Positions 1,591-28,744 of a DNA stretch of 64,000 bases are shown one piece after another. The stretch covers positions 1-64,000 of the forward strand of contig JAQWBP010000007.1 in the NCBI GenBank assembly GCA_028706315.1. The letters run 5' to 3'. This DNA is from Syntrophomonadaceae bacterium. GTDB taxonomy: Bacteria > Bacillota > Syntrophomonadia > Syntrophomonadales > Syntrophomonadaceae. The position numbers and the translations under genes are program-made. The number at the start of each line of letters is the position of its first letter. Position 1 is the stretch's first letter. The notes beneath the pieces were generated by a model. It did not search any database. It was not told the origin of the DNA and worked only from the letters and a program-made list of their open reading frames with translations.

Positions 1591-3240
1591 CTACATTTGA
1601 CTATACATCCTTAATATCATCACCGCTGCCTCAGCACGGGTGGCGTTAGCTGCGGGAGCAAATAGACCATTATCCCGACCTGATACAATATTTTGCTGTA
1701 CTGCGGCAGCTACACTAGTTCTCGCCCAGGAAGAAATAACGTTCTGATCAGTAAATCTTGCCAGGCTGGCAGTCACTGCCTCAGTCGTCGGTTCAACATC
1801 TTTCCCTTTATAGGCTAGAGCCCGCTTAATCATCACCGCCATCTGTTCACGGGTAACCGGGTCCTGGGGGGCAAAGGTAGTGGCAGTATAGCCGCTGACC
1901 AGACCTGCATCGGCAGCTGTATTTACAATGTTAAAATACCACTGGTCAGCAGGTACATCATAGAAACGCCCTTTATACAGGGTACCAGGCTGCAAGCCTA
2001 CTGCCCGGGAGAGCAATGTAACAAACTCGGCCCGGCTGATGTTTTTCTGCGGAGCAAATTCGGTAACGCTTACACCTTTTACCAGATCCATCTCTACCAT
2101 TTTGTAAATATCCGCTTCAGCCCAGTGCCCATTTAAGTCATTAAACTCAATCTGGGGCAGAGGCTTTTCTGGTTCTGGTTCTGGCTCCACTACTGCCGTA
2201 CTATCCTGAGTTTTATCTGCCATAAGGGTGTATTTACTAAAGTGGGTAGTAGTAAAAGTTACTGTGTCTTGCTTAGTATTAAGCTCACCCTTTAGCTGCT
2301 GCCATTCCTTTTTACCGTCATTATAGTAAAAAGCATCCAGGGTTTCTTCGTCCAGTCCCTCTATATCAGTTTTTGCATAAGAGAGCACCACGGTTACCGG
2401 CTTAGCAAAAGTTACCCCACTGACGCTCTCTTCGGTAGTAAGGTTAATTTCATAAACTGGTCCGACTACCGTTTTATCAGCGGCAATTTTGCTTAAAACT
2501 ATTTTTGCTTTGCTTTCGCTGAGCGTTTGGATACTGATATTTAATTTATTATCTTTAGATAGTTGCAAGGCTCTAGCTGGTATGGTCAGTTTTACCCCGT
2601 CTCTTGTTACCTCTATGTCTTTGCCGGCCTTGTTGATGTCTTTAAGAACATCCGCCTCAATACTCAGCTCATCATTTTTTCCCAGGTCAAGAGATATTAC
2701 TGGTTCATTCCGGTTGAGCTGTTTTTTGATTTCTTTGGTTACGGGGGAAGAAGGCGTAATTCCTCCGCCTCTAGGACCAGTAGTAGTCTCAGAAGTGCTG
2801 CCATTGTTCAGTACACTGGCTTTGACTGCATTTCTCAATGGGATTAGATTATTATGTAAAGAATTATTTTTTAAGGTATAATCAATTTCTTCTGGGAAAC
2901 TGTCCAACATAGCCTCAAAAACTGCGCGGTGTTTTTCCCAGATTATTACCTCTTTTAAGGAATCGAACATAACCGAATTAAAATTAGCCTCGGTTAAAGT
3001 TCCCCGGTTCTTTACCTCGGTATCTAAGTCATCTAAAAAGTTCCTGATTTCAGCCTCAGTTGCCCCACCGGCAATAATTTTTTCCACATACCCACTATAT
3101 TGACCTTTGAGTTCATTGTAACTGGAGCTAATATCCCCGGCATAAACTTCTTTGACCTCGGGATTAACCATCATAATTCCCAGCGCCAGAAATAATGATA
3201 CAAATATAACTACAACCCGGGAGAAAATATTTTTAACCAT
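1591..3240 (-). CDS. Secreted SLH-domain surface protein
   Basis: A 549-residue exported protein with a signal peptide (hydrophobic stretch, then cleavage near EVYA-GD). The middle, about residues 205-345, resembles the beta-sandwich module following surface proteins (FAKPVTVVLSY, then a THFSKYTLM segment), also seen in its neighbour. The last ~180 residues are three S-layer homology repeats (GHWAEADIYK, DQWYFNIVNT, SSWARTSVAA, each followed by an SRAEF/TREQM/TRAEA turn), which bind pyruvylated secondary wall polymer. I placed the start at the ATG at 3240, with GAAAGGAAGG just upstream; a longer frame to 3345 would put 35 charged residues before the signal peptide. It follows a terminator, so it probably has its own transcript. 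Probably an S-layer or surface-adhesion component; ligand unknown. Confidence 0.85.
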   Translation of the reverse strand: MVKNIFSRVVVIFVSLFLALGIMMVNPEVKEVYAGDISSSYNELKGQYSGYVEKIIAGGATEAEIRNFLDDLDTEVKNRGTLTEANFNSVMFDSLKEVIIWEKHRAVFEAMLDSFPEEIDYTLKNNSLHNNLIPLRNAVKASVLNNGSTSETTTGPRGGGITPSSPVTKEIKKQLNRNEPVISLDLGKNDELSIEADVLKDINKAGKDIEVTRDGVKLTIPARALQLSKDNKLNISIQTLSESKAKIVLSKIAADKTVVGPVYEINLTTEESVSGVTFAKPVTVVLSYAKTDIEGLDEETLDAFYYNDGKKEWQQLKGELNTKQDTVTFTTTHFSKYTLMADKTQDSTAVVEPEPEPEKPLPQIEFNDLNGHWAEADIYKMVEMDLVKGVSVTEFAPQKNISRAEFVTLLSRAVGLQPGTLYKGRFYDVPADQWYFNIVNTAADAGLVSGYTATTFAPQDPVTREQMAVMIKRALAYKGKDVEPTTEAVTASLARFTDQNVISSWARTSVAAAVQQNIVSGRDNGLFAPAANATRAEAAVMILRMYSQM

Positions 3241-3345
3241 CTTTTCCTTCCTTTCTTTTTTAACTTTAGCCATTAGATGCTCGCAGTAGACATGCCAGAT
3301 TCCACGTTTTACCTTAACCGCCTGGCTTTTTGCGCTGCACCTCAT
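3241..3345 (-). promoter_or_regulatory. Possible structured 5' leader of SLH gene
   Basis: Between the upstream terminator and the start codon the minus strand carries nested complementary segments: GCAGCGCA pairing imperfectly with TGCGAGC, and inside it GCCAG with CTGGC. It contains GCAAAAAGCC but I could not match it to a known riboswitch. It is open in the reading frame of the gene, which may be chance. Confidence 0.25.
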
Positions 3346-3403: not shown

Positions 3404-6022
3404 CTAGGGTAATGCGAGTACGATTACGGTCACTGCTTCAGCTCTGGTAGCGCTGCCCTGAGGTTTAACCGTATTGTCAGGGTAGCCTTTGATTATATTA
3501 TTCTGGGTAGCTGTGGCTACTGCACCTTTAGCCCAAGCTGAAATCTTCGCATTGTCCGCAAAGGCTGTTTCATCGGTAGCTGCAGTTAATTTCGCGGCTT
3601 TTACAATCATGACCGCCATTTGCTCACGGGTGATAAGATCATCCGGACCGAACTGGGTGTCACTATAGCCGTTAACAATACCATTAGCTGCTGCAACTGC
3701 TATATAATCTTTAGCCCAATGGTTAGCAGTATCGTTAAATACTTTGCCGCCAGCTGTTTCCAGCTCAAAGGCTTCAACTAAGACCTTCGCAAATTCTGCT
3801 CTGGTGATAGTATTATCCGGTTTAAAGGTTTTGTCCGGATAGCCAGCAATCGCTTCTAATGCTACCAGGTTCTTAATATTAGCTTCTGCCCAATGTCCGG
3901 CAATGTCAGTCAGGACTACCGGAGTTGGAGTTACTACATCATCTATAATTTCTTCCTTCTCGATAGCAATCAGGGCAAATTTAGTAAAGTGGTCGATTTC
4001 CCCACTTACTTTCCCGTTCTTAAGGTCAACTTTAATATTGTCGAGTTTTTCCCAGGTATCAGTTTTTTCATTCAGCCAGTAAATAGCCAAATCATACTTA
4101 TCAGTATCTACCTGAGATTGCCTATATTTAATTGTAATAGTTACCGGTTTCTTAAAGCTGCCTGATTTGTTTTTAGTGATTTCTAATACATCACCAACCA
4201 GCTTACTCTTTTGCGGCATAGTTAAATCAGATGTATCTCTTACTTTTTCTACTTTTACTTTAATAGTTTTTGCTACTGCATTAGCTGGGATGTCAATGGT
4301 AGCACTGTATTTTTCTACTGATCCGCCTTTAGTCGTGATGGTGGTTCCGGTGGAACCTCCGCCGCCGGGGCCGCCACCGGGGCTGTCGGACACTGTTTTA
4401 GCTGTATAAGCAATAAATTGAGTAAAGTGTTTGGTCCAGATCACCAGGTCATTATTTACATCAATTTTGCCGTCTCCATACCCTGTAATGTCTTTTGTAG
4501 CTGCTTCTAGGGTATCCGCGCTAATTGTTTTGTCGATTGCAACTACTTTTCCACCTCTTACATAAACAGCTTTTTTGCCTGCCTGTCCGGGAATGAGCAG
4601 TCTTACCGGTTTACTAAATGTAAGTTCAGTATCCCCAAAGCCTACTTCGATTACGGCATTAACTTTTTCTGCATTAGCCGGGGTAGCTGCCGGTTCTGAT
4701 TTTACAGTCGGGAGATTTATGGTTCCAGTCCAACCTGCCGGGCCAGTAATTGTAGTGCCGAAAGGTATAGTTAGGGGAATTTGGACTTTTTCACCATTCA
4801 GAGTATCCGTCACTATAGCTTTGACTTCAACAGGAACAACTGCTTGGCCTGATTTTGGTGCTAATTTTATAGCCGGATTATTTACATTCTCATCAAATGT
4901 AAGTTCAGTAGACTCTGTTAGTTCAGATACGTCATATTCTGGTTCCGTTACTGTGATCTTGTCTGGTTCGTTGACCTTTACCTGGAAACGAACTAGCCAG
5001 TCATTTTCTGCTGTGCAGCCTTCTCCGCTCCTATAAGCATAAACTGTAGTTTCTCCAGGTTTTACAGCAGTTAACTTTATAGTACTAGTAGAATTATCTA
5101 CGGTTACGATATCGGCATTACCAGACTTCCACCCTACGAAAGTACTTACGTTTACATTTCTAAGTATTAACTGATAGCCAACGCTTTCACCTTTTTCGAG
5201 GAGTCCAACATTTATCGTTCCATTAGAGTTTTCAATTTTTTTACTCGTGTCCCCTTCTTCATAAACATCAATCTGAGAACGAACTGCGGCTTTAGCCAGA
5301 GCATATTCGGCCTTAAAATATGGGTCTACTGATTGCGCAAGTGTCTGCTGCTGCTGAATTAACAAATCTGTACTCCAGCCTATAGCAGTTAGTTTTCCTC
5401 TAAGTTTAGAATACTCGCTCTCAGCTAAAACTTTATTCATAGCATCTTTGGTATAGCCAGATATTACTTCAATTACTTCTGCATTACTTTGACCTTTTAT
5501 ATCATTATAAAGAGTAGCGGCAGTTACTACTTTCGGTAATTCCTCCCGTGTAGCTACCATAAAATCATATAGTTCCTTAACAGATATATCATCACCAAAT
5601 AGTGTTTGAAAATCTCCCTTATAGAAATCTTTAAAACTAGTTAGGTTTGTCTGCAACTGATCCGCATCAGTAGAATAAGAAATTGTGGCTATTCCTTGGG
5701 CGAAAGCAATGACTGCATCCTCAGCCTCTGATTTGTTGTTACCGAATTTTTCTTTAACAAGCTTTTCAGTAATTAATGGGGCAATAACCGGGGACCAGAT
5801 GGGATCGTCCGTACTTAAATTTCCCAGCTTAGTTCTGGCAGCGTCTATCGCCTGGTGATCACCAGCATCTAAATAAGGATAAATAACTTGAATTTTGGCA
5901 ACCGCTTGTTCTATAGCATAGTCACTATCCGTTGCTAAAGCTGGTGCTGCACTAACTAATGGGCTCATACATAAAAAAGCAAAAGCTATTATCATGAGCC
6001 ATGTAATAGGTCTACTCTTCAT
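3404..6022 (-). CDS. Large secreted SLH-domain protein with Ig-like domain
   Basis: An 872-residue exported protein. The signal peptide spans residues 1-30 (ITWLMIIAFAFLCMSPLVSA, cleavage after ALA). Residues ~30-250 are helical and unassigned. Residues ~270-350 look like a bacterial Ig-like group 2 (BIG2) domain (SGNADIVTVDNSTSTIKL, TAVKPGETTVYAY). Beta-sandwich modules follow up to a Gly/Pro-rich linker near 545-556 and then a ZU5-like module (~565-690). The C-terminus carries three SLH repeats (~703-872) that tether it to pyruvylated wall polysaccharide; csaB at 30205 supplies that modification. The start is fixed by AGGAGGT ahead of ATG 6022. It shares architecture with the downstream SLH gene, suggesting paralogues, but a terminator separates them. 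Confidence 0.88.
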   Translation of the reverse strand: MKSRPITWLMIIAFAFLCMSPLVSAAPALATDSDYAIEQAVAKIQVIYPYLDAGDHQAIDAARTKLGNLSTDDPIWSPVIAPLITEKLVKEKFGNNKSEAEDAVIAFAQGIATISYSTDADQLQTNLTSFKDFYKGDFQTLFGDDISVKELYDFMVATREELPKVVTAATLYNDIKGQSNAEVIEVISGYTKDAMNKVLAESEYSKLRGKLTAIGWSTDLLIQQQQTLAQSVDPYFKAEYALAKAAVRSQIDVYEEGDTSKKIENSNGTINVGLLEKGESVGYQLILRNVNVSTFVGWKSGNADIVTVDNSTSTIKLTAVKPGETTVYAYRSGEGCTAENDWLVRFQVKVNEPDKITVTEPEYDVSELTESTELTFDENVNNPAIKLAPKSGQAVVPVEVKAIVTDTLNGEKVQIPLTIPFGTTITGPAGWTGTINLPTVKSEPAATPANAEKVNAVIEVGFGDTELTFSKPVRLLIPGQAGKKAVYVRGGKVVAIDKTISADTLEAATKDITGYGDGKIDVNNDLVIWTKHFTQFIAYTAKTVSDSPGGGPGGGGSTGTTITTKGGSVEKYSATIDIPANAVAKTIKVKVEKVRDTSDLTMPQKSKLVGDVLEITKNKSGSFKKPVTITIKYRQSQVDTDKYDLAIYWLNEKTDTWEKLDNIKVDLKNGKVSGEIDHFTKFALIAIEKEEIIDDVVTPTPVVLTDIAGHWAEANIKNLVALEAIAGYPDKTFKPDNTITRAEFAKVLVEAFELETAGGKVFNDTANHWAKDYIAVAAANGIVNGYSDTQFGPDDLITREQMAVMIVKAAKLTAATDETAFADNAKISAWAKGAVATATQNNIIKGYPDNTVKPQGSATRAEAVTVIVLALP

Positions 6023-6818: not shown

Positions 6819-8366
6819 TTATTTTTGTTTTAGCCGAAGTATACTTATTAGCCATTCTAATTCTTCTACCCGCAAAAGCTTTATTAATATAAAATAGAGC
6901 GATACCCCTATTACCCCGCAAACACCTAATATTACTACATCTCCTAATATACCAATCCCAGTAAACTTTCCTACCATAATATAGTTAAATAAGTAGTATA
7001 CTGTAATTCCCATAGCAAGAGTAGCAATCATAACTTTACAACCGGTTAATAAAGCTCCTCCCAGACTGCCAACTTGCCTACGCAAACTCCAGAGCAACAT
7101 AAATAGCCCTATAATTATTGAAATGGAAGTAGCTAAAGCTAGTCCTCCATGAGCCAAATACCTTATTAATATAAAGTTAAATACTATATTCAATACCACT
7201 GTACCTATTCCATTTAGCATAGGAGTCATGGTGTCTTGTAAAGAATAAAAAGCTCGCAATACTACTTCTCTCAGCGCTATCGCAGGAAGCCCTACAACAT
7301 AGAATGTTAAAGCACATGTGGTCAATTTTGTAGCTTGAGCATCAAAAGCCCCATGCTCAAATAAAATCCTCACCAGCGGCTCTCCTAAAATAATTATACC
7401 AACAGCAAGAGGCAAGCATATAATAAACAGCAAATTAATGCTATATAGTATACCTCTTCGGAAACGTTCAATATCCTTAGTAATGACACTCTCAGCAAGC
7501 CCAGGATATATTACACTAGCAATTGCCATAGCAAATATCCCTACAACTAACATGTTTAATCGGTTGGCAAAGTTTAAGGCAGTTATGCTACCTTCTATTA
7601 GCCCTGATGCCATGATTCGGTCAACCATGGTATTAATTTGAATTGCTCCTAAACTTACTAATACAAGTGGTACTGAAGTAAGAATTTTTTTTAATGCAGC
7701 ATTATGCCTGTTAAGATTAAAACTAAAATGTATCCCTAATTTTTTTATATCTAATACCTGAAAAAGCCACTGGCAAATTATTCCCAATAAGGTTCCTATT
7801 GCCAGCCCAGTGATTCCCATAATTTTGCCTAAAATGAATATAGACCCTAAGATAATAAGATTATATGGAATACTGCTAAAGGCAGGATATATAAATCTCT
7901 TATGCGATTGCAATATACCAGTAGCAATACCAGCCATTACCATAAATATACTCATAGGAAACATTATTCTAAATAAATATATAGCTAACGGAATTGCCTG
8001 TTCCGAAAATTGAGGAGCAACCAATCCTACTATCTTTTCAGCAAAAACTTCTGCAATAATAGTTACTATTAATAACAAAATAATTAAAGCAGAAGTTAAT
8101 AAATTAACTATTTTTATTTCAGATTCTAGTCCATCCTTTTCCCTGTATTCCGTTAATACAGGAATCATAGAGGTAGTTACAGCAACCCCACCTACTTGAA
8201 AGAATAGATTAGGAATAGTAACAGCTATTAAATATGCATCCGTAACTAAAGAAACACCAAATACCGCTGCAATGGACATTTCTCGAATAAATCCCAGTAA
8301 TTTACTGATAGCCGTTCCTGCAACTAAAGCTGTTGTATTATATATATATTCAGAACTCTTTCTCAT
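6819..8366 (-). CDS. MurJ/MviN-family lipid-linked glycan flippase
   Basis: A 515-residue polytopic membrane protein with about 13-14 hydrophobic segments and the MurJ/MviN signature near the start (TALVAGTAISKLLGFIREM, residues ~12-30; ALREVVLRAFYSLQDTM near 375). The family moves undecaprenyl-linked precursors across the membrane. Because it closes a run of polysaccharide genes and no peptidoglycan genes are near, I infer it acts as the Wzx-type flippase of this cluster rather than the housekeeping lipid II flippase. AGGAAAC precedes ATG 8366; the upstream gene ends 12 bases away, so they are probably co-transcribed. Confidence 0.85.
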   Translation of the reverse strand: MRKSSEYIYNTTALVAGTAISKLLGFIREMSIAAVFGVSLVTDAYLIAVTIPNLFFQVGGVAVTTSMIPVLTEYREKDGLESEIKIVNLLTSALIILLLIVTIIAEVFAEKIVGLVAPQFSEQAIPLAIYLFRIMFPMSIFMVMAGIATGILQSHKRFIYPAFSSIPYNLIILGSIFILGKIMGITGLAIGTLLGIICQWLFQVLDIKKLGIHFSFNLNRHNAALKKILTSVPLVLVSLGAIQINTMVDRIMASGLIEGSITALNFANRLNMLVVGIFAMAIASVIYPGLAESVITKDIERFRRGILYSINLLFIICLPLAVGIIILGEPLVRILFEHGAFDAQATKLTTCALTFYVVGLPAIALREVVLRAFYSLQDTMTPMLNGIGTVVLNIVFNFILIRYLAHGGLALATSISIIIGLFMLLWSLRRQVGSLGGALLTGCKVMIATLAMGITVYYLFNYIMVGKFTGIGILGDVVILGVCGVIGVSLYFILIKLLRVEELEWLISILRLKQK

Positions 8367-8378
8367 TTGTTTCCTACT

Positions 8379-9599
8379 CTACTTTAAAACTTTTTTTATT
8401 TCTGATACTACACGTTTACAATTTTTAGTATCAACAAATGTATTATATTTCTTCTGGGCAATTATTCTTGATTCTCTAAACTCATCTTTACCTGCCAGAA
8501 CTGTGTCAAGAACATTCATCAGGTCATTCCAATTTTCACATTTAGGCCCTACAATTGCTTTATCATAGTCTTCATAAAGATCACGATCTCCAATGACATA
8601 TTCTTTCAAATCAAATGGCGCAAAAATAATGGGCCGGTTTAACAGTAAATAATCAAAATAAACTCCTGAATAATCCGTTATTAACACATCAACATATGGA
8701 AGCAACTCATTTATATCAGGAGCTGCTTCCTCAGAGAGCCATACTATCTGTGATTCCTTAAGTTCATTAATAACGGGTTTTAAAGCTCTATGTACATAAT
8801 GCCATTTAACAAGTAAAACGGCATTATGTACTGCTAAACAACGCTCCATCCTATTCCGGTCTAACTCTGAAAATAATTCTATAGCTTCTTCATTTCCTTT
8901 TCTCCAGGTAGGCGCATATAAAATAACCTTTTCAACTTTCTTGTTCTCTTTGAGAAATTGTATAATTGAAACTTTCGCTGGATTTGAAGCAAGAATAACA
9001 TCTCCCCTGGGAGAACCTGTAACTTTAACATTTGATTTTGCAACTCCAAAAGCAGTTACAAAACGTTCGCTAATAACAGGACTTGGTGACACAATAATAT
9101 CCCATTCAGGTAAACGATAAGGAAATATTCTTTGTAATACATTAACAATAATTCGATACTTTTTAGAATATTCATCTAATCTAATCTTCTTTAAAGGACT
9201 TCCATGCCACAATTGTATCTTTTTAGCACGGGAAATACCAAGCTGGTTTATATCTTGAGTACTCACATTTACTATTACTGTTCCTGCTAAACATGAAAGC
9301 AAATACCCTTTAATACTATTAATGAGATATGCTTCCCCATTTCTTTGACGAACCATATTTACTAAGCTATTTTCCCTGCTTAACCAAACAGCACGGATAT
9401 CTGGTTCATTTGCACAGACATATTCAAATAAATATCGACTGCTATCTGTGTATCGATGGCCTTCCCATGCACCAAACAACCATAGTTTCTTATTTCTAGG
9501 AAAAATATAACTTAACCAGTACAACGGTAAAAATATAAATAAATATACTGGAGCTATTAATAAATTTCTTATTACTTTTTTAATTTCTCTAAATTTCAT
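8379..9599 (-). CDS. CDP-glycerol glycerophosphotransferase (TagB/TagF) family protein
   Basis: A 406-residue protein with a hydrophobic N-terminal segment (~10-30) that probably attaches it to the inner face of the membrane. Family marks are HGSPLKKIRLDE (~132), ILYAPTWRKGNEE (~226) and the DVLITDYSGVYFDYLLL region (~307) followed by DLYEDYD. Known members transfer glycerol- or ribitol-phosphate from CDP-alditols to a lipid-linked glycan. No tagD-type glycerol-3-phosphate cytidylyltransferase gene is nearby; instead a nucleotidyltransferase is fused to PEP mutase at 14495. I infer it may transfer a CMP-activated phosphonate alcohol to the glycan, by analogy only. Confidence 0.85.
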   Translation of the reverse strand: MKFREIKKVIRNLLIAPVYLFIFLPLYWLSYIFPRNKKLWLFGAWEGHRYTDSSRYLFEYVCANEPDIRAVWLSRENSLVNMVRQRNGEAYLINSIKGYLLSCLAGTVIVNVSTQDINQLGISRAKKIQLWHGSPLKKIRLDEYSKKYRIIVNVLQRIFPYRLPEWDIIVSPSPVISERFVTAFGVAKSNVKVTGSPRGDVILASNPAKVSIIQFLKENKKVEKVILYAPTWRKGNEEAIELFSELDRNRMERCLAVHNAVLLVKWHYVHRALKPVINELKESQIVWLSEEAAPDINELLPYVDVLITDYSGVYFDYLLLNRPIIFAPFDLKEYVIGDRDLYEDYDKAIVGPKCENWNDLMNVLDTVLAGKDEFRESRIIAQKKYNTFVDTKNCKRVVSEIKKVLK

Positions 9600-9654
9600 A
9601 ACATTAGCTCACTTCTTTTTTAATATTCTGTATATGTAAATAATATTGGTATTA

Positions 9655-10764
9655 TTAAATCCCATACAATATTGATATTTGTCTGTCAAATCTTTCAAAT
9701 GAGTAATACTTCGCAATAAGTTGCTTAGATTTTTCGCTTTGTAATTGATACTCCGTTCCATCTTTTAAGATATTTAAAATACCTGCAGCTATTTCTTTTT
9801 CATCTACTCCTCCGACAAAATATCCTCCCTGGTCATCTGTTACCCCATTAATTTCTTTAAAAACTATCGGTAAGCCAAATGCCGCTGCCTCAAGCACCGA
9901 ATACGGTGGCCATGCTTCCCATAGTGCAGTATGGACATAAATATCTGAATTAGATAAAAATGTATACACTTCATCTGTACTTAGCCATCCTGTGATTTCA
10001 ATATTTACTTTCAGTTTCTCTGATTCTTCTATAAATTGCTGCTTTAGATCTCCATCTCCAACCCAAACAAAACTCGCCTCCGGTAAAGATTGTTTAATTA
10101 AATTGCATATTCTAACAAACTCCAGGGGATTTTTTGCATTACTTAGTCTACCTACTGATATAATGACCGGCCCTTTATCAGAAAAAATATTTTGGATGTT
10201 AGACTCATTACAAATATCAACACAATGTTCAATTAGTTCAGGCTCTTTTACTATTTGCTTTGCTTGCTCTTGTTCAGCCAGACTAGAAGCAACAATCTTT
10301 CCTCCAAATCGGGCACCCAGAAGTTCAATTTTTCTATACAATAATCTTTTTACTTTAGAAACATCTGTACGTAAAAAAGAAAATCCATGTGGTGTATAGA
10401 ACACCTCTGCAGAAACAGCAGCAAGGCAACAGGCCACCCTGCCTAAAAATCCAGCTTTAGAGGAATGTAAATGCACAATATCCGGATTCAATTTCTTAAT
10501 TACCTTGATTAATTTTATAAGACTCATAGTATCAGTTAATATACTAATCTCTCTGCACATAGAGAGATAGATGAACTGTATCCCCGAAGGGAATAACTCT
10601 TTAAAATTTTCAGGTGTATCTGGACGAATCGAATAAATCACGGTTACCTTTACAGATTTATCCTTCAGCGCTTTGCACATGTTTACTAAATATGTAAGTA
10701 CCCCCCCTGCAGGGCATTCTACAACATGTACACTGTGCTTTTTCCCCGGATGTGGTAAATTCAT
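9655..10764 (-). CDS. Glycosyltransferase family 4 (GT-B fold)
   Basis: A 369-residue cytoplasmic protein of the WaaG/RfaB type. The N-terminal domain has the Gly-rich ECPAGGVLTYLVNMCKAL (~16) and HLHSSKAGFLGRVAC (~96) acceptor-side motifs; the C-terminal half has VGRLSNAKNPLEFVRIC (~203) and the nucleotide-sugar site SDIYVHTALWEAWPPYSVLE (~272), an EX7E variant. Sugar donor and acceptor cannot be read from sequence. Its ATG overlaps the stop of the upstream polymerase-like gene (10761), so translation is coupled. It is part of the surface glycan operon. Confidence 0.85.
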   Translation of the reverse strand: MNLPHPGKKHSVHVVECPAGGVLTYLVNMCKALKDKSVKVTVIYSIRPDTPENFKELFPSGIQFIYLSMCREISILTDTMSLIKLIKVIKKLNPDIVHLHSSKAGFLGRVACCLAAVSAEVFYTPHGFSFLRTDVSKVKRLLYRKIELLGARFGGKIVASSLAEQEQAKQIVKEPELIEHCVDICNESNIQNIFSDKGPVIISVGRLSNAKNPLEFVRICNLIKQSLPEASFVWVGDGDLKQQFIEESEKLKVNIEITGWLSTDEVYTFLSNSDIYVHTALWEAWPPYSVLEAAAFGLPIVFKEINGVTDDQGGYFVGGVDEKEIAAGILNILKDGTEYQLQSEKSKQLIAKYYSFERFDRQISILYGI

Positions 10765-11903
10765 CTATCCAATTCACCTTCTTCTTCCAAATTACTTTTT
10801 TTAGTTATGATAAACTCCCTCGATTTTGATGTAGGAATACGAAACAATAACCAATAGAGTAAAGATATAAGAGCAACAGAATGCTTTAATACCGAACCGT
10901 AGTCTGGTTCAAATAATGCTTGTGTTGCTATAAAGGATAATATAAACAGAACAATCTGTTTATTATTTTTACCATTCTTTTTGATAGCAAATAAGGCGCG
11001 AATTAAACAAATTGAAATAAAACATTGCCATATAACATAAGCAGCTTTAGATATACTCATAAATTTAAGCAAGTGAACCGGGAACATAATTTTTAACAAC
11101 ATACTAAACCAGTTAACAAAAAAAGTCCCTATCCCCGAAACATAGCATGTATTATTTATAATGGAATTTGCATCAGAACTGCCAATTCTTCCCGCATTAG
11201 TTAATACTCTAACGTTACCAATGCTCTCGAAAGCACCAAATTTACCATCGATATAAATAGATATTATAAGCAGACCGATACATATAAAAAAAAGTTTCAG
11301 CCACTTTTTTTTGTGAATTAATTCCGCTGATAATTTACAAAATAGAAAAATGCAAAGTGTAATGCTCCAATAAATACGTACAAAATAACTATATGCAATT
11401 AAAATAATTGATATCCATAACCATGCTAATTTCTTCTGAGAATTCAATGCCGGTAGAATAAATACAATTGCCAAAAATGCAATAAGTTCTTTACTCAATT
11501 GGCCAAGATATACAACCCCAACCAGCCATAAAACTACAGCAAAAATCCAATAGCCCCTTCTATGCAATAGCGGCGGATATCTCAGCATTACTAAACTGAT
11601 AGTTAGCCAGTAAGCCGCAAATGAAACTATCCCAGCTAAGTTGTTTTTAATCAAAGGAGCAAATCCTAATATGTGATAAATCCATGCAGTAACAATAAAA
11701 GAATTTCTATCAAATTTAACTTCATCCAACACAAGAATATTAATACGCTCTGCGTCAAAAAAATATTTCGCAGGAAGCATTTCAGGGAGAAACAAAACCA
11801 ACAGTAATCCAACCATAAATCCAAGTGAAACAAAGCACATATATAAATTGGTACTTTCTTTAACACTATGCAATCTTACATGCTTTTCCCTGAAATTTAC
11901 CAT
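10761..11903 (-). CDS. Polytopic membrane protein, probable polysaccharide polymerase (Wzy/EpsG-like)
   Basis: A 380-residue protein with about 9-10 hydrophobic segments, a long polar loop around residues 50-65 and another near 225-245. No clear family motif, but size, topology, the LSKELIAFLAIVFILPAL helix and position between glycosyltransferase and precursor genes fit a Wzy- or EpsG-type polymerase. ATG 11903 has no good ribosome binding site of its own; it overlaps the stop of a nine-codon open frame that has one (see 11897-11926). An alternative start is Met22. Function moderately uncertain. Confidence 0.6.
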   Translation of the reverse strand: MVNFREKHVRLHSVKESTNLYMCFVSLGFMVGLLLVLFLPEMLPAKYFFDAERINILVLDEVKFDRNSFIVTAWIYHILGFAPLIKNNLAGIVSFAAYWLTISLVMLRYPPLLHRRGYWIFAVVLWLVGVVYLGQLSKELIAFLAIVFILPALNSQKKLAWLWISIILIAYSYFVRIYWSITLCIFLFCKLSAELIHKKKWLKLFFICIGLLIISIYIDGKFGAFESIGNVRVLTNAGRIGSSDANSIINNTCYVSGIGTFFVNWFSMLLKIMFPVHLLKFMSISKAAYVIWQCFISICLIRALFAIKKNGKNNKQIVLFILSFIATQALFEPDYGSVLKHSVALISLLYWLLFRIPTSKSREFIITKKSNLEEEGELDR

Positions 11904-12120: not shown

Positions 12121-13257
12121 CTAATTAAATATCGACCCAATTGCTGAACTCAGTATTTTTTGAGCCATAGTGTTAGTGATTGTGACTAAATTATTATCTG
12201 CCCTTCCTGGTGTAATATAATCTACTTCCACTTCATTAAATTTCTTCTTATCCATATATTTGTTTAATAATTTATTAATCCCAACATTCAGTACCAGGGT
12301 ATTCATAGTGGCTGAAGCATCCTCAATGGAACTGCATCCTAAAGCTTTTACAATTATGTCAATTCGATCAGGAAAATCTTTGCCGTTCACTTTAATTATC
12401 TCTGCTAAAGTTATACTGGCAGCAATCCCATGCGGTATCCCAAAAATTCCTGTCAAAGGATAAGAAATAGAATGAGCTATTGCTGTTCTGGTATTACTAA
12501 AAGCTAGTCCTGCTTTTAGGCTAGCATAATGTAATTCAGCTCGTGTTTCCTTATTATATGGGTTTAACATCACCGTTTTTAGATTTTCAGGAATTACTGA
12601 AATTGCTTGACTTGCCAGTGTATCCGAAATTGGGTTAGCATTCTTATTCCAAATAGCTTCCATAGCATGTGATAATGCATCTAATGCTGTTGTAACTGTT
12701 ATTTCTTCCGGCAGCGTTAAAGTAAGTTCAGGATCAACGATAGTAACTTCAGGGTACAACGCTATATGTGCAAGTGAGTATTTTTGTCCGGTTGCTTCAT
12801 CCCATATAGTAGCCCACATTGTTACTTCGCTGCCAGTTCCTGCAGTTGTTGGAATAGCAATTAAAGGTAACGGCGAAAATTCTTCTGGGAACAAATTCCC
12901 TTCCTTTAAATGTAATGATAACCAGTCCTTCTGCAAACCCGGATGATGTATTGCAGCTACAGCCTTAGCCGTATCAATAACACTTCCTCCTCCAATAGCA
13001 ACCAGAACGTCAGTATTAATAGCATTAATTATCTCTGACGCTTTTGTTACGGATGCAATAGTAGGATTAGGTAAAACATCTAGATATATCGTTGTAATTT
13101 TATCTCCGCAAAGATTTTTTATCTTATCAATGGTACCTCTGTTTTTCATCCCCACAGTGGAAATGATGATGCATTTCCTATTTCCGAGTATATCTGGTAG
13201 CTTATGTATACTACCTGATCCCATAAAAACCTTAACAGGATTATAGAAGTAAGTCAT
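12121..13257 (-). CDS. Phosphonoacetaldehyde reductase (iron-type alcohol dehydrogenase)
   Basis: A 378-residue group III (iron-containing) alcohol dehydrogenase. The NAD(P) site GGGS is at 89-92, TTAGTGSE at 137-144, and the metal ligands are D193, H197 (DALSHAME), H262 and H276 (GIPHG). In phosphonate operons this family reduces phosphonoacetaldehyde to 2-hydroxyethylphosphonate, the PhpC-type step. Assignment rests on the two genes directly upstream, which make phosphonoacetaldehyde. GAGGAG precedes ATG 13257; the gap to the decarboxylase gene is 45 bases. No aminotransferase (2-aminoethylphosphonate route) or phosphonatase is present in the window. A 217-base gap separates it from the next gene downstream. 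Confidence 0.85.
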   Translation of the reverse strand: MTYFYNPVKVFMGSGSIHKLPDILGNRKCIIISTVGMKNRGTIDKIKNLCGDKITTIYLDVLPNPTIASVTKASEIINAINTDVLVAIGGGSVIDTAKAVAAIHHPGLQKDWLSLHLKEGNLFPEEFSPLPLIAIPTTAGTGSEVTMWATIWDEATGQKYSLAHIALYPEVTIVDPELTLTLPEEITVTTALDALSHAMEAIWNKNANPISDTLASQAISVIPENLKTVMLNPYNKETRAELHYASLKAGLAFSNTRTAIAHSISYPLTGIFGIPHGIAASITLAEIIKVNGKDFPDRIDIIVKALGCSSIEDASATMNTLVLNVGINKLLNKYMDKKKFNEVEVDYITPGRADNNLVTITNTMAQKILSSAIGSIFN

Positions 13258-13302: not shown

Positions 13303-14460
13303 TCAGTTACTGTTTTTTAGCCACATCATAAACTGTTCTTTTACTTCAATAGGCGTAAGGTTAGGCCGTCCCAGTTTTGGATCAGAACCTAAAGCAACTT
13401 TAACATGAATAAAGGATGGCCCTTCCGTATTTATTGATTCTTTTACAATTTTATTTAGGGTATCAATTTTGTCTACACGCCAAACATTTTTATATCCACA
13501 TGCAGATGCAACTCCAGCCAAATCTGTGGTTGATGATACAGTAGCTTGACCTCCTGTTGATTCATGGACTTCATTATCTAGCACTATATGTACTAATCCT
13601 TTGGGTTGGTAATGGCCAATCGTTGCAAGAGTGCCCATTTTCATAAGTACAGCACCATCTCCATCAAGTACTACTACTTTTCGCTGAGTAGTTGCCTGGC
13701 AAATACCTAATCCAATTCCTGCTGCACATCCCATAGAACCAACCATATATATTTGATTATTTCTATGTCCAAGAGAAAACAACTCTCTTCCGATCTTCCC
13801 TGTAGTAGCTACTATCGTTTCGTTACCAGAAATATTGTCTTTTATGGCCTTAATAATTGAAAACCTTGAAATTCGCTGGTCTGGTAAACAAGCAAAATTC
13901 CCTGCCGGGCTATCTCCACCGATGTACTGATTTGGGGATAACTCCCCTGTCAACGAATATGCTTCTACTGAACCCTTGCTCATAACGAATGCATATGGAA
14001 GACCGTTTGAACACATATAGTCATCTGCACGTTGCAGAGCAGCTTCAATTTGTGAAATGGTTTGTGGAAAAGGTTCCCATGGTATTCTTAAAACATCTAA
14101 TAGTTCCCCGGTAATTTGACCCATTAACTCATGCTGGGGCTCATCGTTTAGCCCTAGTGCCCCGCGATGCGTTACTATCAACATTGTAGGGATACGAAAA
14201 GGGAAGTTTAATGAAGTTAAAGGATTAACTGTATTACCTAACCCTGAATTCTGACACATCACCACAGTTTTACGACCTGCTAAATAAGCTCCTGCAGCAA
14301 TCCCCACAGCTTCTCCCTCACTAGTTGCTCCGATATAATCTAGATTAGGGTCCTGTAAAACATAGTTTATCAACGGTTTAATAAATGAACATGGTACACC
14401 TGTCCAAAAATTATACCCGCGTTTCAAAGCCGAGTTCACAAAGTCTTGCGCTTTAATCAT
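13303..14460 (-). CDS. aepY: Phosphonopyruvate decarboxylase
   Basis: A 385-residue thiamine diphosphate enzyme, the usual length for the family. The N-terminal pyrimidine-binding domain has the catalytic Glu region ATSEGEAVGIAAG (45-57); the C-terminal domain has the ThDP-Mg motif DGDGAVLMKMG (266-276) ending at N296. The family converts 3-phosphonopyruvate to phosphonoacetaldehyde, the irreversible step that pulls the unfavourable PEP mutase equilibrium forward. The separate but adjacent mutase and reductase genes make the assignment firm. GGAAGGTGA precedes ATG 14460; it lies 34 bases after the mutase gene, same operon. Confidence 0.93.
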   Translation of the reverse strand: MIKAQDFVNSALKRGYNFWTGVPCSFIKPLINYVLQDPNLDYIGATSEGEAVGIAAGAYLAGRKTVVMCQNSGLGNTVNPLTSLNFPFRIPTMLIVTHRGALGLNDEPQHELMGQITGELLDVLRIPWEPFPQTISQIEAALQRADDYMCSNGLPYAFVMSKGSVEAYSLTGELSPNQYIGGDSPAGNFACLPDQRISRFSIIKAIKDNISGNETIVATTGKIGRELFSLGHRNNQIYMVGSMGCAAGIGLGICQATTQRKVVVLDGDGAVLMKMGTLATIGHYQPKGLVHIVLDNEVHESTGGQATVSSTTDLAGVASACGYKNVWRVDKIDTLNKIVKESINTEGPSFIHVKVALGSDPKLGRPNLTPIEVKEQFMMWLKNSN

Positions 14461-14494: not shown

Positions 14495-15805
14495 TTAAAT
14501 TCCATTAGGGATCAAAGTTATAATCTCTTTAATAGGCATAATTTTACTATTAACTTCATAAGCCCTTTCATTTTCAAGTATCATCTTTGCCGTTTCTACC
14601 ATTGCTGGATATGCACTTCTTAATAGGTGATTAGCATATATTACTATGTTGACCCCTGCATCGATAAGCTCTGATTCATATATTACGTTATAGCTAGTCG
14701 GTACGGCTACGAGCGGTACCCTCCGTTCCAATTTCTTATATTCACAACAAAACTCTAAGAATTCAGCCGGTTCCTTTTCTTTACTATGAATCATAATCCC
14801 ATCTGCTCCAGCTTCTATGTACGCCTTTGCTCTATTAATGGCATCGTCTATACCTTTTTTTAAAATTAAGCTCTCAATTCTTGCAATTATCATAAAATCA
14901 TCGGTTATCTGCGCTTTTTTGCCCATCGAAATCTTGTAGCAGAAGTTCTCTATTGAATCTTGTGTTTGCGGTACATCAGTTCCAAAAAGGGAATTTTGTT
15001 TCAAGCCAATTTTATCCTCAATTATTATAGCGGAAACCCCAAGTCTTTCCAGAGACTTAACAGTAAAGACAAAATGTTCAGTTTTTCCACCTGTATCTCC
15101 ATCATAAATTATCGGCTTTGTAGTAACCTCTAGTATTTCATTTACAGTTTGCATTCTCGATGTTAAATCTACTGCCTCAATATCGGGTTTACCCTTCGCA
15201 GTTGAATCTGTTAAACTGCTTAACCACATACCGTCGAATTCCCTGGGACTTGTTTTTTGAGTTACTTTCAAATTCTCGATAATTAGACCAGATAAACCAT
15301 TATGAGCTTCCATAATCCTAACTATAGGCTTTGCATCTATTAATCTTCTAAGAGTTTTCATTCGAATTTCTGGGGTTGTCCCAATCTCTTTCAAGCTTTT
15401 GTTAAGTTGTGTGGAAGATATCCCTTTTGTATATTCCACCTCAACAAGTTCTCCACCCCATTCTTTTAGTGTATCAATAACCTTCTGGCGAACTTCTCTT
15501 TGAACCCCATCTCTCCAATCATCCCCATGGACTACGTAGTCCGGTTTATATGTTCTTAGATTAGGAACATAATCCAAGGTCTCCTGTGGAACTACCCTTG
15601 ATACTCCTTTGATATTTTCTATAACTGTTCTTCTTTGCTCGAAAGACATATAGGGAAGCCGTTTATAACTGGCAATCGCCTCATCTGTTAACAGCCCTAC
15701 AGTTACTTCACCTAGTTTCCTTGCCTCATTTATCACGTTTAAATGCCCCGGATGCACTAAATCAGCACTCATCCCAACGTAAACTTTTTTGGGGTTCCCA
15801 CTCAT
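14495..15805 (-). CDS. aepX: PEP mutase with N-terminal nucleotidyltransferase domain
   Basis: A 436-residue two-domain enzyme. Residues 1-140 are a cytidylyltransferase-like fold: HPGH at 18-21 (HxGH) and GISSTQL at 128-134. Residues ~150-436 are phosphoenolpyruvate mutase: DGDTGG at 235-240 and [10 protein letters not shown] at 263-272, the EDKx5NS signature that separates PEP mutases from isocitrate and methylisocitrate lyases. The mutase makes the C-P bond (PEP to phosphonopyruvate). Fused nucleotidyltransferases are known in this family, and PntC-type domains activate 2-aminoethylphosphonate with CTP. Here an alcohol, not an amine, should be the end product, so CMP-hydroxyethylphosphonate is my inference. 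CGAGGAGGAG precedes ATG 15805; it starts the phosphonate operon, divergent from the 15910 gene. Confidence 0.93.
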
Positions 15806-16316: not shown

Positions 16317-17846
16317 TTAATATGCACCCTTCTTGCCTAAAACTACCCCCACGGTACGAAATAGGAGTGAAATATCAAGCCATAATGACCAGTTACGAAC
16401 ATACCAGGCTTCTAAACGTAACCGTCCATCAAAATCTATTTCGTTTCTGCCGCTAACCTGCCAAAGCCCTGTTATCCCAGGATTACCAAGAAGTATAGTA
16501 TCTGCATATACCCCCATTTGCTCCTTTTCACGTGGCAAATAAGGCCTTGCCCCTACTAAGCTCATATCGCCCTTCATAACATTTAAGAGCTGTGGTAGTT
16601 CATCAAGGCTAAATTTTCTCATCCATTTGCCGGAATTCGTTACCCGCGGGTCATATTCCCTGAGTTTTGCATATGTTTCCCATTCCTCTCTCGCCTTTGG
16701 ATTCTTCTCCAAATATTCTTCTAGTATTTTATCGTTTTCCTGATACATCGTTCGGAATTTATAACATTTAAACTGTTTTGCTCCTTTGCCAATTCTATTG
16801 CCAGAAAAAACAGCAGGCCCGGGAGAATCCAGCTTAATTATTAATGCTAAAATTAGCATTAGCGGCGCTGCCGGGATTAACATAATAAATCCAATAAATA
16901 AATCAAACAACCTTTTTGTTACAATATTTGCCCTGCTAGCCAGGTTATTCCGGGTACGGAAGGCGATTATTTGCTCATCAAAAAAATAATCTACTTCCCC
17001 ACTTATACCTGGAATTCCAAATAAATCTGGTACAACTAGTATCGAGCGGGTATAGGGCTGTAATTGATTAGTTAAAGCTACCAATTCATGTCCTGGTAAT
17101 TCCGGAGCGGCAACTACCACTCTCCTTATCCCTGTAGTATTCAAAATACTGGGTGTCTCAGTAAACCGGCCTAATACTGGATATTTGTTTCCATTCAGTT
17201 TAAGGCTCCTTTTTTTCCTTTGAGTATCATCCGATACAAAACCGGCTATAGTATATCCCAGATATTTATCATTAGCTAGAGCTTCTGCTACTATCTGCCC
17301 AGTTTTACCAGTTCCCATTATGATAAGTGATTCTTTCCATATACCTGCTTTTGCCAAAATAGTTTTTCCCAGATACCTGCTCAAAGGAAGGATAAATAAA
17401 GTAATGATATATGCGCCAACCAGTACGGTTCTGGATACCTCTCCACCGAGTTTGGCCAGGGAAACAGCGGCAAGTACTAATATAAAAGCCAGAGAAACAG
17501 CACCTAACATGCGTTTAATTTCCCTCCAGAATGGCAACCGTTTGGTGTAAAGTCCGGCATATGCCAGACATAATATATTAACGCCCAATACCCAGTATAT
17601 TTTGTCTGCTAGTTCAGGGGGCATGGCTGCAGGAAAAGCCGGAAATAATCCAGGTAAGATATGTATACGAAAATGATAACTTAAAGCCAGTGCTGCAAGA
17701 AGCCCAGCTATGTCTATTAACACTAGACTAGTAACGGCAATTACTTTTAATACTGATTGTCTAAAGCTAACCATTGGGGCTGTTAGGCCCTCTACCGGTG
17801 GTTCAATAACTATACCATTTTCTGCTTCACATATCAGCTTAGACAT
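16317..17846 (-). CDS. Undecaprenyl-phosphate sugar phosphotransferase (WbaP/PglC-type)
   Basis: A 509-residue polyprenyl-phosphate hexose-1-phosphate transferase. About five N-terminal membrane helices (30-160), a Rossmann-like CoA-binding region with MGTGKTGQIVAEAL (~178), then the C-terminal catalytic domain: KRLFDLFIGF (~308), YKFRTM (~363), KFSLDELPQLLNVMKGDMSL (~415) and GITGLWQVSGRN (~455). It loads the first sugar on the lipid carrier and so starts a surface polysaccharide. The WbaP-like length with a full N-terminal domain fits galactose or glucose, but the sugar is not decidable. It lies 20 bases downstream of the ligase gene and is probably co-transcribed with wzz. Confidence 0.9.
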   Translation of the reverse strand: MSKLICEAENGIVIEPPVEGLTAPMVSFRQSVLKVIAVTSLVLIDIAGLLAALALSYHFRIHILPGLFPAFPAAMPPELADKIYWVLGVNILCLAYAGLYTKRLPFWREIKRMLGAVSLAFILVLAAVSLAKLGGEVSRTVLVGAYIITLFILPLSRYLGKTILAKAGIWKESLIIMGTGKTGQIVAEALANDKYLGYTIAGFVSDDTQRKKRSLKLNGNKYPVLGRFTETPSILNTTGIRRVVVAAPELPGHELVALTNQLQPYTRSILVVPDLFGIPGISGEVDYFFDEQIIAFRTRNNLASRANIVTKRLFDLFIGFIMLIPAAPLMLILALIIKLDSPGPAVFSGNRIGKGAKQFKCYKFRTMYQENDKILEEYLEKNPKAREEWETYAKLREYDPRVTNSGKWMRKFSLDELPQLLNVMKGDMSLVGARPYLPREKEQMGVYADTILLGNPGITGLWQVSGRNEIDFDGRLRLEAWYVRNWSLWLDISLLFRTVGVVLGKKGAY

Positions 17847-20862: not shown

Positions 20863-22147
20863 GTCCCTTTATTTCTTTCTGCTCTTCTCCGTTGCGCATG
20901 TATTCCATGAAGAATACTGCAAAGGTGGAGAGCATTAGGCCAAGGACGGCAGCTATGGCTATATTTAATGCCTTTTTAGGTTTTACTGGTGTTTCTGGGG
21001 CAATCGCATCAGCTACAGTTGTTATGTTATTTTCGGCTATGTCTATAGCCTGGGTTATTTTTAGATCAGCTATTTTTGAGGTTAAGAGAGTAACTACTTT
21101 TTCTCTTCTGTCTACCTCATCCTGTAGTTTCTTTTCTTCAATCTGGTTATTTATAAGTTCACCTTCGAGTTCACGGATTTCGGCTTCTAACTGGCCAGTT
21201 TTCTGTCTGGCAGTAGCTATAGCTGATTCAGTCCCGGCCAGTGCTGTTGATTTTTCATTATAAGAATTAACTGCGGCCACATACGCTTCGTTAAGATTTT
21301 CGCTGGTTACCTGGCCGTTTTGTATGTCCAGGCCATTAGTTTGTAATGATAATATACCCTGGGCTGAACTGTTCGTAGTTATAGTTGCCGGGGTATTTTC
21401 TATATTCTTTTTTTCCTGCTGGATGCCCTGTCTAAGAGCACCCTGTTGAATTTCGGCACCTATGATTTGCGATTGGAATAGAGCTAGGTCTTCGTTTTTC
21501 TGCTGCAGCTGAGTAGTTAAGAATTCAATAGATCTTGACTGTAGTTTATAGTTTTTGAGATCCTCAGTAGCTAGCTTTAATTGTTCTTCTTCCTTGGCCA
21601 GCAGCTCTTTTTCCATCATTCCCAAAGAACGTTCCATTTTGCGAGCATTTATGATATTAACATTAGCAACGACTTTTTCCCTGATGGTATTGGCAACAGA
21701 GGCTGCCTGTTCAGGATCGCTGTTGCTCACAGTAATCGTTATCAGGTTAGTGCCTTTAGGGTTTTCAGTTTTTATGCTTTCACTCAGCTCGCGTCTTTTA
21801 CAATCTAACCCCAATTCCTTGATAGTAGCCTGCAGTATGGAGGGTGATTTCACCTGATGCTGACAGGCCTCCACACTCATCTGGGGTATTTCTCCCAGTT
21901 CCTGGACGACATCTTCAATATCACCTGTCGCTTGCCGGGTATCCTGCTGTTGGTTTACTGATATAACGGTGCTGGCCTCATAAACGGGATCAATTACAAA
22001 AAAGCTTAGGATTCCGCTAATAAGCATACAGATTACGGTTACAGCAATGATAGTAAATCTTCTTTTATGTAAAGTATTAAATATTTCTCTGAGGTCAATT
22101 TCTTCGAAGTCGGTATGGATAGGGTTGTTGTTGTCAGGTTGGGTCAT
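20849..22147 (-). CDS. Wzz-type polysaccharide chain-length determinant / co-polymerase
   Basis: A 432-residue protein with two membrane helices (about 33-54 and 385-408) framing a long extracytoplasmic coiled-coil region (~185-370), the Wzz/PCP layout. The N-terminal EEIDLREIFNTLHKRRF and the Pro-rich APETPVKPKKALN just before the second helix are typical. It sets glycan chain length with the polymerase. No BY-kinase domain or adjacent CpsB/CpsD kinase-phosphatase genes are in the window. AGAGGTG precedes ATG 22147. It is the first gene of a three-gene run with the ligase and sugar transferase. Confidence 0.88.
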   Translation of the reverse strand: MTQPDNNNPIHTDFEEIDLREIFNTLHKRRFTIIAVTVICMLISGILSFFVIDPVYEASTVISVNQQQDTRQATGDIEDVVQELGEIPQMSVEACQHQVKSPSILQATIKELGLDCKRRELSESIKTENPKGTNLITITVSNSDPEQAASVANTIREKVVANVNIINARKMERSLGMMEKELLAKEEEQLKLATEDLKNYKLQSRSIEFLTTQLQQKNEDLALFQSQIIGAEIQQGALRQGIQQEKKNIENTPATITTNSSAQGILSLQTNGLDIQNGQVTSENLNEAYVAAVNSYNEKSTALAGTESAIATARQKTGQLEAEIRELEGELINNQIEEKKLQDEVDRREKVVTLLTSKIADLKITQAIDIAENNITTVADAIAPETPVKPKKALNIAIAAVLGLMLSTFAVFFMEYMRNGEEQKEIKGPKTV

Positions 22148-22263
22148 GGTGCACCTCTTTTTGGTTTTTTTCTACTTCTATCGGTATATTTTAGCATATT
22201 TTGATAGGGAAAGAAGGACTAATTTGTGTTTTGTATGCGGGCTGCGGGGGGTTTACTTTTTTA

Positions 22264-22385
22264 ATAGCCACGGATAGCACGGATTACGCGGATTTTTTCT
22301 TCCCTTTTAATGGCCACGGATGGCACGGATTTCACGGTTTTTTATTCCTTTTTAAATAGCCACAGATTACGCGGATTTCACTGTT
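22264..22385. repeat. Three tandem-like copies of the CCACGGATTACACGGATT family
   Basis: ATAGCCACGGATAGCACGG, ATGGCCACGGATGGCACGG and ATAGCCACAGATTACGCGG, each followed by GGATTTCACGG-type runs and T-rich tails, about 45-50 bp apart. Gene-free DNA between wzz and the stalk-domain gene. Confidence 0.8.
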
Positions 22386-22402
22386 TTTCTTTTATTATAT
22401 AT

Positions 22403-22432
22403 ATTGCCGGGAATGCCTCCATTCCCGGCAAT
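22403..22432. terminator. Hairpin after stalk-domain gene
   Basis: ATTGCCGGGAAT / ATTCCCGGCAAT, perfect 12-bp arms and a 6-base loop, 14 bases past the stop at 22446. There is no clean T-run, and the core resembles the CCCGGAAT hairpin family, so it may be a lone repeat copy with terminator activity. Confidence 0.55.
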
Positions 22433-22445
22433 GTGGTTGGTATTA

Positions 22446-23822: not shown

Positions 23823-23842
23823 GTTAAGAACCTCCTATTTTT

Positions 23843-23876
23843 TTAATAGCCACGGATTACGCGGATTACACGGATC
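23843..23876. repeat. CCACGGATTACACGGATT-family repeat copy
   Basis: ATAGCCACGGATTACGCGG then ATTACACGGAT and a T-rich tail, between the stalk-domain gene and the GxxExxY gene. Confidence 0.8.
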
Positions 23877-23887
23877 TTTTTTTTCTT

Positions 23888-24277
23888 TTATTTTTTCGGG
23901 GTTAGTATTTTGCGTTTTATTTTTATTTCATCGCCAAAGTTAATAATTAAACCTACTTCTTTTTCTGTAGCTTTTAAGTAGTTTATAAGTTGTGCTTCAT
24001 GAGCTTTAGTTAATTCACTTATAGCCTTTAGTTCTACGATTACTTTGTCTTCTATTAAAAGGTCAGCAAAGTATTCACCTACTATTTTTTCATCATAATA
24101 TACATTTATTGGATGTTGCTGTATTGTTTTTAATCCTTGCTTTTCTAATTCAACTACTAAAGCATTTTCATAAATTTTCTCTAAAAATCCTGCTCCTAAT
24201 ATGTTATACACCCTGTAAGCGGCACCTATGATTTCTTTTGTCAGGTTTTCGTATAAGAGCTTTGTTGTGTTTACCAC
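23888..24277 (-). CDS. GxxExxY family protein
   Basis: A 129-residue protein with the family signature GFLEKIY at residues 30-36. D72 and E82-x-K84 (VGEYFADLL, then VIVELKA) match a PD-(D/E)XK nuclease-like core. Family function is not established; members are scattered through genomes, often in several copies. The start is GTG 24277, with AAGGAG 6 bases upstream. It is flanked within 20 bases on both sides by CCACGGATTACACGGATT repeats, unlike its neighbours, which suggests that gene and repeats travelled together. It shows no link to polysaccharide synthesis beyond location. Confidence 0.85.
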   Translation of the reverse strand: MVNTTKLLYENLTKEIIGAAYRVYNILGAGFLEKIYENALVVELEKQGLKTIQQHPINVYYDEKIVGEYFADLLIEDKVIVELKAISELTKAHEAQLINYLKATEKEVGLIINFGDEIKIKRKILTPKK

Positions 24278-24292
24278 AATGGTCTCCTTTTT

Positions 24293-28686: not shown

Positions 28687-28744
28687 AATGACTCCTCTCC
28701 AACTTTCCCCTGTTTGGCAGGCATTTATATTAGACCAGCTTTTT

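Follow-up and report, generated by a model that had tools for sequence, protein, structure and literature searches.

A TagF-like protein in a phosphonate gene cluster of a Syntrophomonadaceae bacterium, proposed to transfer 2-hydroxyethylphosphonate to a surface glycan

We analyzed a 64,000-nucleotide stretch of a Syntrophomonadaceae genome (the window), in which a TagB/TagF-like gene lies in a cluster of phosphonate and polysaccharide genes. Our main conclusion is that the encoded enzyme probably transfers 2-hydroxyethylphosphonate (HEP) from CMP-HEP, and not glycerol phosphate, onto a lipid-linked glycan. The gene content, the gene order, the conserved catalytic motifs and the recurrence of the cassette can be read directly from the DNA. 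The genes from the cytidylyltransferase-mutase fusion to the MurJ-like gene are given here in order of transcription, followed by one gene that lies upstream of them.

14495..15805, minus strand: Fom1-like cytidylyltransferase fused to PEP mutase (CyT-PepM), 436 aa (TIGR02320, 422 bits, cut-off 319.55)
13303..14460, minus strand: phosphonopyruvate decarboxylase (TIGR03297, 436.5 bits, cut-off 312.5)
12121..13257, minus strand: Fe-dependent alcohol dehydrogenase (Fe-ADH), proposed phosphonoacetaldehyde reductase yielding HEP (TIGR03405, 335.5 bits, under the cut-off of 423.7)
10761..11903, minus strand: membrane protein, possibly a Wzy-type polymerase (6 hydrophobic segments in a simple hydropathy scan)
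9655..10764, minus strand: GT4-type glycosyltransferase (PF00534/PF13692)
8379..9599, minus strand: TagB/TagF-like transferase (PF04464), proposed CMP-HEP:glycan 2-hydroxyethylphosphonate transferase (TagF structures 3l7i-3l7m match the predicted model best)
6819..8366, minus strand: flippase of the MurJ family, next gene after the TagF-like one with a 12-base gap (TIGR01695, 361 bits)
16317..17846, minus strand: WbaP-type initiating sugar-phosphate transferase, upstream (TIGR03022, 445 bits)

From CyT-PepM to the MurJ-like gene, the intergenic gaps are 34, 45, 217, 55 and 12 bases and there is one 4-base overlap, so these genes likely form a single operon. The membrane protein had no Pfam or NCBIfam match, and the Segatella counterpart of the Fe-ADH is annotated as a phosphonoacetaldehyde reductase. 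A promoter scan found 34 sites, compared with 41.7 in shuffled sequences. The phosphonate locus looks horizontally acquired: the GC content is 33-38% at 6-16 kb, compared with 39-46% at 16-40 kb and 40-50% before 6 kb, the only one of 63 genomes of the class with a PepM above the cut-off is the host's own, and in a tree the CyT-PepM protein clusters with three Bacteroidota proteins (support 91/94). Elsewhere in the window we noted an LCP-type ligase, a WecA-type transferase and a polysaccharide pyruvyl transferase at 27526-31269, as well as an SLH protein at 1591-3345 and one at 3404-6022 that looks similar by eye, so the envelope may include an S-layer anchored by a pyruvylated wall polymer.

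An earlier note on this DNA had called the product of 8379-9599 a TagB/TagF-like protein, and this was confirmed. A 406-aa open frame fills these positions exactly and matches PF04464 with 232 bits (cut-off 22.1) over residues 29-401 and profile positions 5-365 of 367. No other protein of the host genome (2.5 Mb, 94 contigs, 99.9% complete) matches PF04464 at E 0.001. The AlphaFold model has a mean pLDDT of 86.2 and a pTM of 0.87, and in a Foldseek search against the PDB its best match is 3l7l (E 1.8e-24), with TagF chains taking all of the top 11 places. By profile coverage, both essential histidines and a predicted GT-B fold like that of TagF, the protein belongs to the PF04464 superfamily, yet it fails the classical TagB/TagF/TarF tests, missing the equivalog cut-offs for TarF (157 bits of 550), TarL (101.6 of 1000) and TarB (39.2 of 500). 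The residues of interest in its active site are the following.

9204..9206, minus strand: His132, equivalent to TagF His444, putative base (alignment to 3l7i and the H444N variant 3l7j)
9195..9197, minus strand: Pro135, equivalent to TagF Pro447, flanking the small glycerol pocket (alignment; rule from PMC10299916)
8799..8801, minus strand: His267, equivalent to TagF His584 (alignment to TagF structures)
8664..8666, minus strand: Gly312 in DYSG, DYSS in 63 of the 66 rows not linked to a mutase (alignment; found by column scan, lead only)

Both histidines are kept in all five rows of our PF04464 alignment whose genes are linked to a mutase and in all 66 of the other rows, and their columns are the ones mutated in the PDB variants 3l7j and 3l7m (the title of 3l7m prints H548A). 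In TagF, Pro447 borders the small glycerol pocket, and ribitol-phosphate enzymes have Gly there, according to PMC10299916. A hydroxyethyl group is smaller than glycerol and so would fit a pocket of the Pro135 type. Among the other mutase-linked proteins, introduced below, this residue is Pro in L014 and L120, Ala in L072 and Gly in L082. Pro135 also agrees with the enzymes that handle glycerol phosphate, and polysaccharide loci gather transferases of that kind, so we weighed the alternative of an ordinary teichoic-acid-like transferase that draws CDP-glycerol or another CDP-alditol from an unrecognised cytidylyltransferase, with the phosphonate genes at this locus just because they serve a common polysaccharide. 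We consider this unlikely.

The nucleotidyltransferases of the host bear directly on the CDP-alditol alternative. The earlier note had claimed that TagD, the glycerol-3-phosphate cytidylyltransferase, is absent and that no nucleotidyltransferase lies nearby except the one joined to the mutase. The first claim stands for the whole genome, where none of the four PF01467 (CTP_transf_like) matches is a TagD: they are NadD, CoaD, an NF010191 nucleotidyltransferase and the fused domain itself at 15404-15769, which reaches 51.5 bits with TIGR01518 (cut-off 165.4). The second is true for the operon. Six proteins genome-wide match PF12804, which covers the other nucleotidyltransferase fold, namely a MobA-like protein, GlmU, three that resemble mannose-1-phosphate guanylyltransferases, all under their NCBIfam cut-offs, and a 271-aa NTP_transf_3 protein (L215). 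The existence of L215 favors the CDP-alditol alternative, since it could be a CTP enzyme making another CDP-alcohol; it lies on this contig beyond the window (G000:C56, about 81124-81528), adjoining glmU, and had no NCBIfam match at E 1e-10. Against that alternative, TagD and a second PF04464 protein are missing genome-wide and there is no TarI-like gene within 8 kb of the TagF-like gene. We also noted one WecG/TagA-family gene, on another contig of the host genome.

The chemistry predicted for the operon leads to HEP. Among solved structures, the fused cytidylyltransferase is nearest to that of Fom1 (PDB 5x3d, 209 bits, E 9.5e-61), and it carries the nucleotidyl motifs HxGH and GxSST as HPGH and GISST. 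The mutase half has the PepM motif EDKXXXXXNS as [10 protein letters not shown] and is a true PEP mutase. Fom1 makes CMP-HEP and serves fosfomycin synthesis, as stated in PMC6697681. Given a Fom1-like cytidylyltransferase, a decarboxylase and an Fe-ADH, with no transaminase among the operon ORFs, we predict that the operon product is CMP-HEP. The Pfam-scanned ORFs of the window include no Aminotran_5, and the operon has no separate PntC. This content counts against a second alternative, that the TagF-like enzyme uses another CMP-phosphonate such as CMP-AEP or a further modified HEP, as does the Fom1-like cytidylyltransferase with its motifs present. We regard that alternative as improbable, although AEP is the best-known surface phosphonate (PMC6697681) and AEP clusters hold PF04464-like proteins of a divergent branch. 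A third alternative is that the operon makes CMP-HEP on the way to a small secreted phosphonate, much as Fom1 does for fosfomycin, with the TagF-like gene belonging to the neighboring polysaccharide genes. Among the scanned operon ORFs we recognised nothing like Fom3 or FomD, radical-SAM genes included, and the glycan genes are interleaved with the phosphonate genes, so we think this very unlikely.

Transfer of HEP by the TagF-like enzyme is also what the comparison of gene clusters suggests. A pattern search of 84,980 species genomes returned 11 loci with TagF-like relatives, of which the nearest (37%) is in a Bacteroidetes MAG (L014), the only one of these 11 genomes with a PepM above the cut-off. 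There the TagF-like gene is directly behind those for CyT-PepM, decarboxylase and Fe-ADH. Finding the nearest relative within this cassette in a different phylum argues against the CDP-alditol alternative. The four genes are contiguous in L014 and in Segatella copri DSM 18205 (L120), a genome of the window's phylum (L072) has them in another order, and L082 has them with one nucleotidyltransferase gene in between. In L014, L120 and L072 the PF04464 gene adjoins the HEP reductase and no TagD- or TarI-type gene is found within 8 kb, which again speaks against a CDP-alditol donor. Other nucleotidyltransferases are present in L072 and L082, and a CDP-alcohol transferase in L072, which count against our reading. 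Within the phylum sample, the proteins closest to ours are from G316 (31%), which is TagD-linked and so favors the CDP-alditol alternative, and the second copy of G419 (32%, 16 kb from PepM); the PepM-adjacent G419 copy is 26% identical. The closest proteins in this sample are thus not those encoded next to PepM, which counts against HEP transfer.

We compared 26 PepM clusters: 16 from the window's phylum including the window (16/398 genomes had a PepM above the cut-off), 9 from Bacteroidota including L014 (9/395), and that of Segatella copri, which gave the best fusion match among 402 plasmid records and was matched by the TagF-like query too. Clusters with an Fe-ADH reductase were typed as HEP and those with a transaminase as AEP, giving 10 HEP-type, 15 AEP-type and one left untyped. 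Strong PF04464 neighbors (>100 bits) are found in half of the HEP-type clusters (5/10: the window, L014, L072, L082 and L120), in none of the 15 AEP-type clusters and not in the untyped one, a gene counting as adjacent if it fell in the region retrieved with PepM, which extends about 10 kb at most to each side; strong PF04464 proteins on other contigs of AEP-type genomes (G389 C22, G423 C129) are thereby excluded from the count. Of the remaining HEP-type clusters, L137 has no PF04464 neighbor, L133 has a weak one (29 bits), and L071, L079 and L084 have none on contigs shorter than 10 kb, so that the HEP count, with 3/8 HEP contigs this short, is a lower bound. The window and L014 were both reached through the TagF-like protein, and without them the comparison is 3/8 with 0/15 (p 0.03); leaving out Segatella as well, which was picked partly since both queries matched there, it is 2/7 with 0/15 (p 0.09). 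At the genome level, TagF-like matches occur in 7/15 genomes with PepM (window excluded) and in 27/382 without (Fisher 7e-5).

Weak PF04464 neighbors (28 to 49 bits) occur in L133, which is HEP-type, and in 3/15 AEP-type clusters, a point in favor of the CDP-alditol alternative. The three are divergent PF04464-like proteins at 5854-7146 in L075, 14005-15249 in L078 and 14198-15367 in L080, and are candidates for an AEP transferase branch.

The cytidylyltransferase motifs vary among the HEP-type fusions. Both are kept in the window, L014, L133 and L137, L072 has GVSIT, and GISST is missing from L120, L082, L084, L071 and L079, with L120 lacking HxGH too. The fused chain of L120 contains an additional MobA-like stretch, L082 encodes an NTP transferase as a protein of its own, and in these two the other nucleotidyltransferase may carry out the activation. 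Following the phosphonoglycan genes of L120, at 21516-25290, are genes for an adenylation protein, an acyl carrier protein, an AAC(3)-family acetyltransferase and an alanine racemase, and a similar adenylation/ACP/AAC(3) set is near the TagF-like gene of the Solidesulfovibrio plasmid pDMC1 (L210).

The earlier note had proposed a phosphonate-transferring branch of the family. We placed 71 PF04464 domains in a "quick" tree, several of whose branches are long, excluding domains with less than 60 bits on a seed profile built from the five mutase-linked proteins or of at most 250 aa, which removed L075, L078, L080 and L133; L024 and L177 have no row. A PepM counted as a neighbor within 8 kb and a cytidylyltransferase within 4 kb, so rows labeled "none" may have partners farther away. 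The TagF-like protein and L014 are sisters (SH-aLRT 99), the TarF row L122_4812 lies elsewhere, the partner of L072 is a Roseovarius protein linked to TagD (97), and L082 and L120 are placed among TagD- and TarI-linked rows. The five strong mutase-linked proteins require 4 changes on the tree, and a single phosphonate-specific clade of the five was rejected (AU test, p-AU 2.17e-5). Therefore the proposed branch holds for the window and L014 as a pair, and not for all five, while the phosphonate side of the proposal gained from the recurrence of the cassette in another phylum and the Fom1-like cytidylyltransferase. Of the two findings that were to count against the proposal, a tagD gene elsewhere and grouping with classical teichoic acid enzymes, we saw neither, as the genome has no TagD and the protein stands apart from the TarF row. 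That one clade is rejected suggests that HEP clusters acquired TagF-like enzymes more than once, and an association made several times argues for function even as it weakens the idea of a branch. Whether the TagF fold was recruited several times (four places in the tree, five clusters) to transfer CMP-activated HEP to surface glycans, by Bacteroidota such as Segatella copri, by anaerobes of the phylum to which the window belongs and perhaps, as a distant relative, on a large viral contig, is in our judgment evenly balanced; if it was, bacteria would have arrived repeatedly at phosphonate counterparts of teichoic-acid decoration.

We also considered Gly312 as a residue diagnostic for phosphonate and dropped it to a lead. 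The second Ser of DYSS is present in 63/66 rows that are not mutase-linked. Gly occupies the column in 3/5 mutase-linked rows and 1/66 others, and any residue other than Ser in 4/5 and 3/66. The column was chosen after a scan of all columns, two of the three mutase-linked Gly rows are sisters, and Gly occurs both with and without PepM nearby: in the divergent weak branch it is found beside PepM (L075, L078, L080) and also away from it (L205/L009, L207, and L060, where PepM is in the genome 64 kb off).

In the pathway that we propose, PepM would convert PEP to phosphonopyruvate, the decarboxylase would convert this to phosphonoacetaldehyde, the Fe-ADH would reduce the aldehyde to HEP, and the fused Fom1-like cytidylyltransferase would activate HEP to CMP-HEP. 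The WbaP-type protein, which likely builds the lipid carrier end, and the GT4 protein would make an undecaprenyl-linked saccharide, and the TagB/TagF-like enzyme would move HEP from CMP-HEP to a hydroxyl of that saccharide as TagF does, with two histidines and CMP as the displaced group, except that the donor would be a C-P and not a C-O-P compound. The MurJ-like protein would possibly flip the decorated unit, with polymerisation next, although it could instead be the general MurJ of the cell. The substrate of each enzyme, the acceptor, and the order of transfer and flipping are what we infer from the genes.

Phosphonate-bearing exopolysaccharides are made by bacteria, as in the phosphonoglycans of Glycomyces and Stackebrandtia, and it is this feature that our proposed product would have in common with them. 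With TagF, TarF, TarL and CroT (Bcs3) of PF04464, the TagF-like protein has in common the fold and both catalytic histidines and, presumably, the CMP leaving group and a polymer acceptor, but it has no TagD partner, falls below the equivalog cut-offs and has Gly for the second Ser of DYSS. CyT-PepM has the same fusion order as Fom1 of fosfomycin synthesis, cytidylyltransferase then PEP mutase, but is set among polysaccharide genes, with no methylase or hydrolase recognised in the operon. As PMC6697681 describes them, Pnt clusters have a Ppm with a fused nucleotidyltransferase and are thought to serve cell-surface glycans or lipids; they have an AEP transaminase, a LicC-like and a LicD-like protein, whereas our operon has an Fe-ADH route to HEP, a Fom1-like cytidylyltransferase and a TagF-like candidate, and no LicD was seen among the Pfam-scanned ORFs of the window. 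The same paper (Rice 2019, PMC6697681) found that about two-thirds of the phosphonate clusters of bacteria have nucleotidyltransferases. Among the matches listed in the open-access literature, no report ties PF04464 or TagF to phosphonate synthesis, and phosphonate and glycerophosphotransferase appear together only in single co-mentions (C. difficile flagella, rumen ryegrass, Erysipelothrix).

Relatives of CyT-PepM are also found in IMG/VR contigs (L224-L244), where 21 of the 26 loci returned have a full-length protein that is 58-69% identical to that of the window, with EDKXXXXXNS present; HxGH and GxSST are kept in 18/21, and some contigs are near-copies. By BLAST, a decarboxylase half-gene is nearby in 10/21 and a short Fe-ADH in 17/21. 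A virus-encoded HEP pathway is possible, the viral origin resting on the collection, and among the literature matches listed, the one paper that combines all four topics does not name pepM as a virus-encoded gene in its matching passages. On the large viral contigs L227 and L228, a 348-aa PF04464 relative (68 bits) at 8956-10002 ends one base before CyT-PepM, and split TPP-enzyme genes and a short Fe-ADH come next; its sequence reads DLSS in place of DYSS and lacks WHG. Scanning the viral collection with the TagF-like protein and its Segatella counterpart returned no relative. Of two fecal "phage" scaffolds, L251 is AEP-type, and L250 has only a decarboxylase-like frame in its ORF list, its PepM frame being hidden by a longer overlapping frame.

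The four-gene cassette with a TagF-like gene beside an HEP reductase, present in Segatella copri and in the window's lineage, is a concrete candidate that can be assayed. If our reading is correct, the donor range of this cell-wall enzyme family would grow from phosphate esters to phosphonates.
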